Assembly: GCF_001887355.1 (NCBI RefSeq)
Contig: NZ_MPIN01000007.1
Coordinates: forward strand, 332,888-396,887
From: Cystobacter ferrugineus
GTDB lineage: Bacteria > Myxococcota > Myxococcia > Myxococcales > Myxococcaceae
Length of the DNA stretch: 64,000 bases
Direction of reading: 5' to 3'
In this document: one piece after another, positions 9,578-12,742 of the stretch
Layout: the number at the start of each line of letters is the position of its first letter
How positions within the stretch are numbered: position 1 is the stretch's first letter
The notes under the pieces: generated by a model
What the model was told of the DNA's origin: nothing
What the model saw: the letters and a program-made list of their open reading frames with translations, nothing else
Databases searched by the model: none
Made by a program: the position numbers and the translations under genes

Positions 9578-10723
9578 CTAGGGAGCACTCCGTGTGTTCG
9601 TGGTGGCGTCCGTGCGCAGGAACGCCGCCACCCGCTCGGCCGCATTGCGGCGGATGTTCATGTAGAAGAGCTGGAACTCCACGGGATGGTGGTTGCCCTG
9701 GCCCAGCGCGTGGTCGAGCAGCCGGCTCATGAAGTCTCGCGGCAGGTCTCCTCCGACGAGGATCTCCAGCTTCCCCTCCTTGCAGTGCGCACCGGTGAGA
9801 CCTGGCATGACCTGGGGTGGGGTTGTTTCGAGGAACACGGCTCCTTCGTTCCGCTCTGGCGGGGCCGGTTCCGTGTCGTGCCGCCAGGTCAGGGGGTTCA
9901 CGCAGAGGGTGGGGCCCATCGCGGGCGCCGTGTCCATCACGGAATCCCATACCTGGATGCGCTCCGTGTAGCCGGCACTGCGTGCGTTCCAGCTGATGAG
10001 ACATCCGGTCTGCTCGGGTGATGCGCAGAAGGGAATGTCGGGGAGGCTCTGCCGGAGCGCACCTTCTGGCATCGGAATCCCAATGAGATACGCGGCGACG
10101 AGCCGGTGCCGGAGGGGTGTTCCGCTCACGAACTCACGCAGGAGGCGCCTGGCATGCACGGTTCCCTGGCTGTGTGCCGCGAGGATGAAGGGCCGTCCGT
10201 GATTGTATGTCTCCCTCCAGTAGCGGAACGCCGCGGCGACGTCCTGGTAGGCGAGGTCCACCGCTGCCAGCCCCTCCTCGCTCCGCTGGGTGAAGGCGGT
10301 CAGGTTCGCCTGCCGGTAGCGAGGCGCGTAGATGGCGCAACAGGCGTTGAAGGCGCTTGCTTGAATGAGTGTCGCCACCCGGTCGGTCGCCGTGTTGAGG
10401 GAGACATCATCGACAGGGCCGTTCCACTCGCCGCCGACATACGTGGTGGGGTGGATGTAGAAGACATCCACGGGCGCCTGGGATTGCTCGAGGCCCGGGC
10501 TCGACGGGAGCGCTATGTCCGCGAGGTCATGGCGCTCGGGAAGTGCGCTCCAGGCGGAGGGCAGGGTGTAGTCGGGCGGTGCCGGGGGACGCGCCTCGTT
10601 GAAGGGCGTCCCGGGGGTGATCGACCACAGGAAGATGGACGCGAACTTCATCACCAGCAACACCCCCAACAGGGTGCACGCAGAGAGCGTAGCGACGATG
10701 ACGCGCTGAAGCCTGTTCCTCAT
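9578..10723 (-). CDS. DUF3089 alpha/beta-hydrolase, membrane-anchored
   Basis: The 381-residue product starts MRNRLQRVIVATLSACTLLGVLL, an N-terminal membrane anchor, so the hydrolase domain should face the periplasm. It has the DUF3089 features V-F-Y-I-H-P-T-T-Y near the N-terminus, a nucleophile elbow A-H-S-Q-G, and DRV segments; these form an alpha/beta-hydrolase of unknown substrate. The long open frame extends upstream through the tRNA-like genes, but the start at 10723 is the only one with a plausible signal. The gene is last in the minus-strand order peptide, tRNA array, hydrolase, with 75 bases to the nearest tRNA. Confidence 0.8.
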   Translation of the reverse strand: MRNRLQRVIVATLSACTLLGVLLVMKFASIFLWSITPGTPFNEARPPAPPDYTLPSAWSALPERHDLADIALPSSPGLEQSQAPVDVFYIHPTTYVGGEWNGPVDDVSLNTATDRVATLIQASAFNACCAIYAPRYRQANLTAFTQRSEEGLAAVDLAYQDVAAAFRYWRETYNHGRPFILAAHSQGTVHARRLLREFVSGTPLRHRLVAAYLIGIPMPEGALRQSLPDIPFCASPEQTGCLISWNARSAGYTERIQVWDSVMDTAPAMGPTLCVNPLTWRHDTEPAPPERNEGAVFLETTPPQVMPGLTGAHCKEGKLEILVGGDLPRDFMSRLLDHALGQGNHHPVEFQLFYMNIRRNAAERVAAFLRTDATTNTRSAP

Positions 10724-10798
10724 CCTGGAACGATAAGGAGGCCGGGCGGAACCTGTCAAAGACGCCTTCCGCCCCTGAAACGTCCGCATGTCGTGGAG

Positions 10799-10872
10799 TG
10801 CCGCGGGCGGGATTCGAACCCGCAACCCCTGCGTTCTGAACGCAGTGCCTCTACCAGTTGGGCTACCGCGGC
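10799..10872 (-). tRNA. tRNA-like gene 1, short class I body with Leu anticodon CAG
   Basis: Reads on the minus strand as a full cloverleaf: 7-bp acceptor GCCGCGG/CCGCGGC, D-arm with GGTAGA, anticodon stem CTGCG/CGCAG around loop TTCAGAA, five-base variable loop, T-arm GCGGG-TTCGAAT-CCCGC, discriminator A73, no encoded CCA. The anticodon is CAG, which reads the leucine codon CUG, and A73 fits leucine. Canonical bacterial tRNA-Leu, however, has a long variable arm (class II), which is absent here. The body looks more like tRNA-Gln. It may be functional, non-canonical or specialised. Confidence 0.65.
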
Positions 10873-10890
10873 GTGTGTTTGGACTGCGAG

Positions 10891-10965
10891 TGCCGGAGGC
10901 GGGATTCGAACCCGCAACCACCAGACTCTCGATCTGGGGCCTCTACCAGGTTGGGCTACTCCGGC
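10891..10965 (-). tRNA. tRNA-like gene 2, short class I body with anticodon GAG and C33
   Basis: Minus-strand cloverleaf with acceptor GCCGGAG/CTCCGGC, a D-arm almost identical to tRNA-like gene 1, anticodon stem CCAGA/TCTGG, a five-base variable loop, the same T-arm as gene 1 and A73. The anticodon loop is TCGAGAG, so the anticodon is GAG (Leu CUC/CUU) and position 33 is C instead of the near-universal U. Shared D- and T-arms show it is a paralogue of gene 1 with different acceptor and anticodon stems. The spacer to gene 1 is 18 bases. C33 and the short variable loop make ordinary decoding doubtful. Confidence 0.6.
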
Positions 10966-10992
10966 GTGGAGCACTGTTGAGACGGTGAAGAG

Positions 10993-11063
10993 CGCTCCTG
11001 CAGGGAATCGAACCCAGTTCACACGGTAGACGGCCGTGCTGCGATCCAATCGCATCCAGGAGC
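10993..11063 (-). tRNA. tRNA-like gene 3, anticodon GUC-like with C33
   Basis: Minus-strand fold: acceptor GCTCCTG/CAGGAGC, D-stem TGCG/CGCA with a seven-base loop containing GG, anticodon stem CACGG/CCGTG around loop CCGTCTA, four-base variable region, T-arm CTGGG-TTCGATT-CCCTG with one T-T mismatch, and G73. Anticodon GTC would read Asp codons, and G73 is the Asp discriminator, but position 33 is C and the D-loop is short. About 71 bases, 27 bases from gene 2. It is unrelated in sequence to genes 1 and 2. It could be a degenerate or specialised tRNA. Confidence 0.5.
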
Positions 11064-11097
11064 TTGTGTTGCGAGAGCAGGAGCCGGAAAGGCAAGA

Positions 11098-11123
11098 GGC
11101 CGGTCCCTTTCGGGATCCCGGCC
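11098..11123 (-). terminator. GC-rich hairpin with GAAA tetraloop after the peptide gene
   Basis: On the minus strand GGCCGG pairs with CCGGCC and TCCC with GGGA around a GAAA tetraloop, with a two-base bulge. It lies between the stop of the 51-residue peptide gene (11167) and tRNA-like gene 3, and a short T-rich stretch follows. It may terminate the peptide transcript or act as a processing site ahead of the tRNAs. Confidence 0.5.
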
Positions 11124-11166
11124 CCTTGAGTCCCGTGCCTCGTCGTGAGACGGGGACGCGGTGGGT

Positions 11167-11322
11167 TCAGGGTCCGGGTAGTCGGCCGCCCAGCGACTCC
11201 ATGCCGCCGAGCAGAAGGTTCAGGGCGGAGTCCAGACCGGTACGCGAGAGCGCGTCGATGCCAGTGTTAGTGTCGTTGTGGGACTCGAGGTTCATCGGGC
11301 TCTGCTTCGTCACCAGGCTCAT
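11167..11322 (-). CDS. 51-residue peptide of unknown function with Gly-Gly motifs
   Basis: A small gene with a strong ribosome-binding site: AAAGGAG ends 8 bases before the ATG at 11322. The product begins MSLVTKQSPMNLESH and ends L-N-L-L-L-G-G-M-E-S-L-G-G-R-L-P-G-P. The Leu-rich segment ending in Gly39-Gly40 resembles a double-glycine leader cleavage site, which would leave an 11-residue core (MESLGGRLPGP). No modifying enzyme or transporter is adjacent. The AT-rich region upstream (about 11430-11480) is a likely promoter. The gene is followed on the same strand by the three tRNA-like genes. An in-frame upstream ATG exists, but without a comparable ribosome-binding site. Confidence 0.5.
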   Translation of the reverse strand: MSLVTKQSPMNLESHNDTNTGIDALSRTGLDSALNLLLGGMESLGGRLPGP

Positions 11323-11594
11323 GGTCACCGCTCCTTTCATCGAGAAAAGACGCGGCCCGAAATCGTTCCTGACAACTTCTGCGTGGAGATGGCCGCGGAG
11401 CCGCTTCCGGGCGCTTGCGTTGCGTGAGAGCAGCATGATGACATTTTTTTGTTGGATGAATTGTTTGAACTGTTTTTGCCTGGAGTCATGGTCATGAGCT
11501 TGCCTCCACGCCTCACGCACGCGAACGCCTCATGGAGCTGATGGCGCGGGATCCCCCTTGCCGTCGCGTCGTCCGGCTGCTAGCCATGAGTCAT
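11323..11594 (-). promoter_or_regulatory. leader and promoter region of the small peptide gene
   Basis: No gene is evident in these 272 bases. The segment around 11435-11480 is AT-rich with runs of T and A, unlike its surroundings, and lies about 110-160 bases upstream of the peptide start, where a minus-strand promoter would be expected. The plus-strand thi promoter should also lie here, upstream of the riboswitch. Confidence 0.35.
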
Positions 11595-11680
11595 TCCGTT
11601 GGGGTGCCCCTTCCCGGGGCTGAGAGGCCGAGCGCCAACCCATCGAACCTGATCCGGCTAGGACCGGCGTAGGGAACGGA
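11595..11680 (+). ncRNA. TPP (thiamine pyrophosphate) riboswitch, THI element
   Basis: Contains the conserved THI-box blocks in order: GGGGTGCC, GGCTGAGA, a variable hairpin, ACCC, GAACCTGATC, and ACCGGCGTAGGGAA. The P1 helix closes between 11595-11600 and 11675-11680 (TCCGTT with AACGGA). It lies 85 bases upstream of thiO and should sense TPP to repress the thiazole operon. Confidence 0.93.
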
Positions 11681-11720
11681 GAGCAGCGAGGGCGCGCGAT
11701 CTCTCGGTCGTGGCCCTGGA

Positions 11721-11761
11721 GCTTCCTCTGAACCCCCCGCCGGTTCTCCAAGAGAGGAAGC
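11721..11761 (+). promoter_or_regulatory. hairpin that can sequester the thiO ribosome-binding site
   Basis: GCTTCCTCT at 11721-11729 is perfectly complementary to AGAGGAAGC at 11753-11761, which contains the thiO Shine-Dalgarno sequence three bases before the ATG at 11765. The 9-bp stem spans a 23-base loop and follows the TPP aptamer by 40 bases. This is the arrangement expected for translational control by a TPP riboswitch; no clear intrinsic terminator with a T run is seen. Confidence 0.6.
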
Positions 11762-11764
11762 ACG

Positions 11765-12742
11765 ATGCGGACGCCTACGACCAGCGGCTACACGATCCTC
11801 GGTGCCGGGGTCATGGGCCTCTGCACCGCCGTCGAGCTCGCGAGCCGTGGCGGTCGGGTGACGCTGGTCGATCCCCAGCCCGAACCGGGCCCCCATGCCT
11901 GTTCCTGGTGGGCGGGCGGGATGCTCGCTCCCTTCTGCGAGGGCGAGACGGCCGAAGAGCCGGTGATCCGGCTCGGCCAGACCGCCGCCGACTGGTGGGC
12001 GGCGCAGGGGGTGGAGGTCATCCGCCGTGGCACGTTGGTGCTCGCCCTGGGCCGCGACCGGGCCGAACTCGACCGCTTCGCCGCCCGGACGCGGGAGCAC
12101 CGGTGGATGGGGGGCGAGGAGCTCGCCGCGCTCGAACCCGATCTCGACGGCCGCTTCCATCGCGGGCTCTTCTTCCCGACCGAGGCGCATCTGACGCCGC
12201 GCGTGGCCCTCTGCACCCTGCGCGCCCGTGCCGCGGCGCTCGGCGTCGCCTTCGCGCGGACCGCGCCCGAGGGCCAGCGTATCGACTGCCGGGGCCTTGC
12301 CGCGCGCGACGCGCTCCCCGAACTGCGCGGCGTGAAGGGCGAGATGCTCGTGCTGCGCCTCCCCGACCTCGCGCTCTCTCGCCCGATCCGGCTCCTCCAC
12401 CCGCGGATCCCCGTCTACCTCGTCCCCCGCGGCGGCGGCATCTACATGCTCGGCGCCACGATGATCGAAAGCGCCCAGCGCGGGCGCGCGAGCGTCCGCT
12501 CGGTCATGGAACTGCTCAGCGCCGTCTATGCGCTGCACCCGGCCTTCGGCGAGGCCGAGATCCTCGAGATCGGCACCGATGCGCGGCCTGCCTTTCCCGA
12601 CAACGTCCCGCGCCTCATCCGGCGCGACGGCACGCTCTTCCTCAATGGCCTCTACCGCCATGGCTATCTGATGGCGCCGGCTCTGGCTCGGATGGCGGCC
12701 GACCACCTTCTGTCCGGCGAACCCGTGGAGCTCCTGCAATGA
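11765..12742 (+). CDS. thiO: glycine oxidase ThiO
   Basis: A 325-residue FAD-dependent oxidase that oxidises glycine to dehydroglycine (iminoglycine) for thiazole assembly in aerobic bacteria. The dinucleotide-binding motif G-A-G-V-M-G-L follows the N-terminus (about residues 12-18), E/D at the end of beta-2 is D in V-D-P-Q-P-E-P-G, and W-A-G-G-M-L-A-P matches the ThiO signature. It is first in the operon behind the TPP riboswitch, with GAGGAAG as ribosome-binding site. Its TGA overlaps the ATG of thiS by four bases (ATGA), implying translational coupling. Sequence and gene order look like Rhodobacterales. Confidence 0.9.
   Translation: MRTPTTSGYTILGAGVMGLCTAVELASRGGRVTLVDPQPEPGPHACSWWAGGMLAPFCEGETAEEPVIRLGQTAADWWAAQGVEVIRRGTLVLALGRDRAELDRFAARTREHRWMGGEELAALEPDLDGRFHRGLFFPTEAHLTPRVALCTLRARAAALGVAFARTAPEGQRIDCRGLAARDALPELRGVKGEMLVLRLPDLALSRPIRLLHPRIPVYLVPRGGGIYMLGATMIESAQRGRASVRSVMELLSAVYALHPAFGEAEILEIGTDARPAFPDNVPRLIRRDGTLFLNGLYRHGYLMAPALARMAADHLLSGEPVELLQ

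Follow-up and report, generated by a model that had tools for sequence, protein, structure and literature searches.

Short leader frames as probable attenuators of extra tRNA gene arrays in Myxococcaceae

Attenuation is the textbook means of sensing charged tRNA in the control of amino-acid synthesis, and the trp, his and leu leaders are ribosome-mediated attenuators of amino-acid operons. T-box riboswitches bind uncharged tRNA directly. The locus analysed here lies in a 64,000-nucleotide stretch of the Cystobacter ferrugineus genome (assembly GCF_001887355.1, contig NZ_MPIN01000007.1, positions 332,888–396,887 of the forward strand; hereafter the window) and belongs to a family of units that resemble the amino-acid attenuators in having a short leader open reading frame (ORF) with putative control codons, a terminator-like hairpin and a predicted, mutually exclusive antiterminator. 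They differ in that they would control tRNA genes rather than biosynthesis, that one leader could sense many amino acids, that the antiterminator strand is formed by the leader's own last codons and stop, and that the promoter is ECF-like. With T-boxes the units would share an antitermination response to tRNA charging, but they would read an ORF instead, and a search of window positions 10700–11800 with Rfam returned no T-box match at E ≤ 1.

Extra tRNA genes have been described in other settings. The accessible part of the account of Mycobacterium tRNA array units (PMC5966550) likewise reports dense clusters of extra tRNA genes, and no leader-controlled attenuation is seen in that part. Phage arrays also carry extra tRNAs, some with changed anticodon loops, for which the available sections of two papers propose a role in replacing depleted tRNAs (PMC10264068, PMC11555353) and, through the loop changes, in evading host anticodon nucleases (PMC10264068); unlike these, the arrays described here reside in host genomes, match their leaders and cover up to 19 amino acids. 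Streptomyces tRNA-ProX (PMC11415595) shares with our arrays the divergence of extra tRNAs that lack U33 (A33 there, mostly C33 here), but, according to the accessible text, pairs with a dedicated synthetase, ProRSx, and mistranslates, whereas the identity elements here mostly fit the anticodon. The literature searched, which was mainly open-access, contained nothing on myxobacterial tRNA arrays under leader control, in line with the suggestion of a first-pass annotation of the window that such a system had not previously been described.

The unit in the window and its family

That annotation had proposed a small frame with a strong ribosome-binding site, followed on the same strand by odd tRNA genes. 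Both are present: the frame occupies 11167–11322 of the minus strand (51 codons), and the three tRNA genes after it include Leu genes without a long arm and an Asp gene with C33 and U37. The parts of the unit are as follows.

11349–11374 (G000:C7:344236-344261), minus strand: ECF-type promoter-like pair, TGTCAGG-N15-CGTC
11320–11338, minus strand: conserved ribosome-binding site and start codon, GAAAGGAGCGGTGACCATG
11167–11322, minus strand: leader ORF, 51 codons, end LNLLLGGMESLGGRLPGP; codon content matches downstream tRNAs across the family
11167–11178, minus strand: putative antiterminator 5′ strand, CCCGGACCCTGA, consisting of the last codons and stop; pairs with the terminator 5′ strand
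11130–11157, minus strand: hairpin H1, directly 3′ of the leader, fold −14.6 kcal/mol
11112–11129, minus strand: terminator 5′ strand, common to the antiterminator, TCAAGGGGCCGGGATCCC
11084–11127, minus strand: terminator-like hairpin (11094–11127, −24.2 kcal/mol) and short T tract (about 11084–11093)
10992–11063, minus strand: divergent tRNA-Asp(GTC), 72 nt, with C33 and U37
10890–10965, minus strand: divergent class-I tRNA-Leu(GAG), with C33 and without a long variable arm
10798–10872, minus strand: divergent class-I tRNA-Leu(CAG), without a long variable arm

The only Rfam matches above gathering score in this stretch of the window were tRNAs and a separate TPP riboswitch, and the Rfam tRNA model missed the Asp gene both in a search of its own genome (E ≤ 0.1) and in a search of the window (E ≤ 1). 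The riboswitch (74.4 bits; 11590–11692, plus strand) lies on the strand opposite to the unit and is followed by a thiamine operon (a ThiO-like oxidoreductase, ThiG and others) that extends to about 15275; it is ordinary and apparently unrelated to the unit. A second unit in the same genome (G000:C5:191211-191791; L095, L132) has a leader of 47 codons, many of them for Trp and Pro, with tRNAs Pro(GGG), Pro(CGG), Trp(CCA) and Leu(CAA) after it.

The family homologue search recovered homologous frames in relatives, with tRNA arrays downstream. Matches to the peptide at E ≤ 1 occurred in 55 of 96 family genomes, many of them weak, and larger stretches around the homologues often revealed two or more units per genome. 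The Shine–Dalgarno-plus-start pattern GAAAGGAGCGGTGNNNATG had 91 sites in 46 of the 96 genomes (none for a reversed control), so that frame and pattern recur far beyond chance. Across the phylum the pattern was found in 46 of 195 genomes, all within the family (control, one match); one of these 46, G049, owes its place to a single chance match inside a gene (L101). A stricter pattern yielded 43 stretches among GTDB species genomes. Re-examination of 19 loci from the GTDB and viral scans revealed no tRNA array in 13 GTDB stretches outside the known genera or in one viral stretch, which we took as chance matches, nor in the Corallococcus locus L191. From 98 ORF hits we retained 95 units, whose position upstream of an array is true of all 95 by construction; L087, L101 and L130 were left out for lack of an array, L101 and L130 lying inside long frames and L087, from Corallococcus carmarthensis, being an over-long frame. 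The units belong to a single family and occur in Myxococcus (including M. xanthus AM003), Pyxidicoccus, Corallococcus, Archangium, Hyalangium and the genus of the window. With 95 units across the family, the idea that frame and tRNAs are conserved together, raised in the first-pass annotation, is strongly supported.

When the array tRNA-Leu(CAG) was used as a DNA query against the phylum, matches of 84% identity or more that spanned most of the gene were confined to the same six genera, and weaker matches are probably ordinary tRNAs. In Corallococcus-like genomes (for example, G016:C6:240703-241150) the promoter pattern occurs about 350 bases from an array-type tRNA-Leu, and the exact Shine–Dalgarno pattern is absent, so there are probably additional units that use different ribosome-binding sites. 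Two loci labelled Comamonas sp. KCTC 72670 (L218 and L227) carry Myxococcus-type units, and the label is probably wrong, with a Myxococcus the likely source.

The 95 units share one layout: an ECF-like promoter, a fixed ribosome-binding site, a leader of 22–62 codons, a GC-rich terminator-like hairpin and then 1–19 divergent tRNA genes. The AAAGGAGCGG-type Shine–Dalgarno sequence is found in all 95, and its pattern is specific to the family. GTCAGG-N15/16-CGTC (CGTA in two) precedes it by 10 or 11 bases in 91 of 95 units, as against 20 occurrences of the pair in 19,000 shuffled upstream regions. This candidate ECF-dependent promoter resembles those of ECF sigma factors; it shares the TGTC...-N16-CGTC layout of the ECF41 promoter, given in the accessible part of PMC3426412 as TGTCACA-n16-CGTC, but has TGTCAGG rather than TGTCACA at −35. 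The promoter pattern taken alone has one further site in the window's genome, without a clear gene, and many scattered sites across the family.

A hairpin at the H1 position follows the stop codon in most units displayed, and a GC-rich hairpin, GGCCGGG...CCCGGCC, is present in 86 of 95 and absent from 9; the median distance from leader stop to first tRNA is 96 bases. The outer pairs of this hairpin vary in step (A-T in 68, G-C in 10 and G-T in 3 of 81). It is followed by a T-rich tail (5.06 T in 12 bases against a background of 1.56; 85 units), in which the T runs are short, the longest being four in 34 and three in 28 of the 85 and TTT in the window. The T tract is weak there, and a standard terminator scan of the window listed no terminator. 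In L046 and L174 (leader MVNPMSPMN...) the terminator seems truncated, with the first tRNA directly after its 5′ strand; these are possibly constitutive derivatives or recombination products.

Pairing of the leader end and matching of leader codons to arrays

The end of the leader (for example, CCCGGACTCTGA plus stop) has the potential to pair with the terminator 5′ strand (CCAGAGGCCGGG). Across 20 cluster representatives the mean duplex energy was −18.7 kcal/mol, against −11.5 kcal/mol for shuffled tails, and tails swapped among the 20 clusters reached the observed energy in 3 of 10,000 trials. The window's predicted duplex (−18.1 kcal/mol) is instructive, in that its tail CCCGGACCCTGA and partner TCAAGGGGCCGGG depart jointly from the common form; as judged from these comparisons, the tail–terminator pairing covaries. 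In 8 of the 20 representatives a different segment of the leader equals or surpasses the tail in pairing with the terminator 5′ strand, beyond what chance rounding would give, which means that partners other than the tail are possible. Many leaders end in a conserved PPG, and the conservation of these C-terminal codons can be explained by base pairing with the terminator, with no need for a peptide function. The weak amino-acid constraint on the leader (median dN/dS 0.56, 122 pairs) is consistent with this explanation.

Leader codons are matched to the tRNAs that follow. The share of leader codons for amino acids that the unit's own array serves was 0.424, against 0.319 after permutation of arrays, and at the level of individual codons 0.248 against 0.172 (22 clusters; none of 20,000 permutations reached either value). 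These figures include tRNAs missed by ARAGORN, taken from 29 tRNA-like copies found by BLAST and added where they lay within array limits; before the addition the values were 0.421 and 0.245. Permutation of 46 clusters again gave 0 of 20,000, as did that of 13 representatives from the largest leader group (71 units). Leaders and arrays that share ancestry do not count as independent cases, and kinship inflates simple leader–array counts; with only seven deep clusters, the observed match was reached in 22 of 20,000 permutations at the amino-acid level and in 403 of 20,000 at the codon level. Of 47 disjoint sister pairs whose arrays differ, 33 were concordant, 7 discordant and 7 tied. The window's own sister pair (L050 and L031) goes in the wrong direction, an array Asp gene accompanying fewer Asp codons; L031 may hold a tRNA-Asp remnant.

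All 19 array amino acids are commoner in leaders whose array carries their tRNA. Trp codons occur in 18 of 19 leaders with an array tRNA-Trp and 16 of 76 without, Tyr codons in 22 of 23 and 6 of 72, and Cys codons in 12 of 12 and 10 of 83, respectively. Matching extends to the choice among Leu codons: CTC accounts for 38 of 86 in leaders of units carrying tRNA-Leu(GAG), compared with 52 of 202 when the Leu tRNAs of the array are all of other types (Fisher 0.003, uncorrected for relatedness), and TTG for 7 of 36 with an array tRNA-Leu(CAA) and 11 of 408 without (Fisher 0.0002, likewise uncorrected). Two units of a single genome, G062, illustrate the point, as the leader of the Gly/Leu/Pro unit ends in VLAPVALLPAPVLLPGLPPGGRWPGL and that of the Asp/Arg unit contains TTARDSERGETSPWDCPPGR.

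A divergent and redundant tRNA set

Together, the arrays of the 95 units comprise 551 tRNAs with 31 anticodons, and a Ser tRNA is found in none of them. In one genome (G063), 36 array tRNAs cover every amino acid except serine, 19 in all; the window's genome has seven (Asp, Leu, Pro and Trp) in its two units, and anticodon choice varies by species. All seven share their anticodons with separate canonical genes in the same genome, including a canonical tRNA-Asp(GTC) elsewhere and long-armed Leu(GAG) (83 nt) and Leu(CAG) (85 nt) genes outside the unit. The array genes found by ARAGORN mostly retain cognate identity elements, and charging elements, which were parsed automatically with some rows out of register, were mostly as expected (G3:U70 in 33 of 37 Ala, U73 in 39 of 39 Gly and G73 in 23 of 23 Asp). 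U33 is missing from 63 of 400 unique sequences, including 15 of 16 Asp, 19 of 20 Gly(GCC), 10 of 10 Leu(GAG) and 7 of 7 Val(CAC); only two of the 60 tRNAs in the window's genome lack it, and we take these two to be the Asp and Leu(GAG) tRNAs of its own array. A CCA sequence is encoded by 13 of 452 array tRNAs, a smaller share than the 14 of 53 among canonical tRNAs. The nearest canonical tRNA serves the same amino acid for just 10 of 31 array types, suggesting that the array tRNAs are old or fast-changing. The body of the array tRNA-Gly(GCC) (for example, L033 9438-9510) most closely resembles a canonical tRNA-Ser that lacks its long arm but carries a Gly anticodon together with U73. In L155, the frame directly after the last tRNA of a large Myxococcus-type array resembles an HNH-type nuclease gene.

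A proposed circuit and its purpose

The architecture of the units, the covarying pairing, the codon–array match and the presence of redundant canonical tRNAs in the genome of the window constitute the sequence evidence from which we infer translation, stalling and termination at these units, and they make it very probable that the frame serves as leader in a ribosome-mediated transcription attenuator controlling an operon of extra tRNAs. RNA polymerase would start at the ECF-like promoter, just 5′ of the ribosome-binding site, with a ribosome trailing it and translating the leader. Where charged tRNAs suffice, the ribosome would get to the stop codon and mask the last codons, allowing the strong hairpin to form and transcription to end ahead of the tRNA genes. 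Where a tRNA is scarce, the ribosome would stall earlier, and the exposed last codons could pair with the 5′ strand of the hairpin as an antiterminator, so that the array is transcribed. A leader rich in codons of its own array's tRNAs would make the unit sense a shortage of what it produces and switch off once supply is restored; the predicted circuit closes on itself because the array supplies the tRNAs that the leader needs.

The purpose of such a circuit is less certain than its mechanism, because amino-acid starvation would also stall the leader and more tRNA would then be of no help. An extra tRNA helps if tRNA is missing, not if the amino acid is missing, so the likeliest purpose seems to be a reserve against the loss of canonical tRNAs, as might be caused by tRNA-cleaving toxins; we give it about an even chance, and the phage tRNAs introduced above, as far as those sources go, may offer a parallel. 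The fuller proposal of a conditional second tRNA set, silenced by attenuators and released on tRNA destruction or exhaustion as immunity to the tRNA-cleaving toxins of rivals, prey or phage defence, is a tentative one that we hold at slightly less than even.

Other explanations assign the arrays to starvation, to routine translation or to an unusual use of tRNA. An attenuator that senses amino-acid starvation could release array tRNAs that stay uncharged, boost the stringent response and help to start development. Starvation-triggered development is a hallmark of myxobacteria (as also stated in the accessible part of PMC4320627), attenuation detects uncharged as well as missing tRNA, and the arrays of one genome, with their leaders, cover up to 19 amino acids; however, the retained G3:U70 of Ala and U73 of Gly disfavour uncharged decoys, and anticodon choice differs by species, so that we consider such an amplifier unlikely. 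Similarly doubtful is a boost to translation of favoured G+C-rich codons, with the leader tuning dosage. Many array anticodons do read C- or G-ending codons (CTG, GCG, CCG and GGC), but canonical tRNAs already share the anticodons of all seven array tRNAs in the window's genome, conserved positions such as U33 are broken in array tRNAs, and large arrays also contain Trp, Cys, Met and His tRNAs.

The odd tRNA bodies—class-I Leu, C33 in Asp and a Gly(GCC) nearest to canonical Ser tRNAs—could instead point to mistranslation or non-ribosomal use, the array tRNAs carrying another amino acid or supplying a tRNA-dependent peptide ligase that would lengthen the small peptide, and dual-identity tRNAs are known in Streptomyces, according to the available part of PMC11415595. 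Against this, discriminators and first pairs mostly fit the named amino acid, the genes next to the units differ between genera, and RNA pairing accounts for the conserved peptide end; clustering the ORFs of 20 loci revealed no dedicated partner enzyme, neighbours being genus-dependent, and we regard such uses as very unlikely. The window leader alone, with its GG and strong ribosome-binding site, might suggest a double-glycine bacteriocin-like or RiPP precursor, and the first-pass annotation had envisaged a double-glycine leader with an 11-residue core. This did not hold across the family: of the 95 leaders, 3 contain LLGG and 7 have a GG with eight or more residues after it. The leader peptide had no match in Pfam, NCBIfam or PHROGs, its amino-acid constraint is weak, and Pfam identified no peptide-maturation or export families among eight neighbouring window proteins, all ordinary. 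A precursor peptide is therefore extremely improbable, and we rejected a peptide product because of the missing database matches and the unconserved GG.

If the attenuator reading is true, attenuation would be serving a new end, the control of tRNA genes themselves, with as many as 19 amino acids covered in a genome, and bacteria would gain an inducible spare decoding set. The presence of divergent extra tRNAs in some genomes, which phage work has linked to anticodon nucleases, would become testable. The match between leader and array would amount to a natural codebook, in which each leader should report a shortage of its predicted tRNA set.
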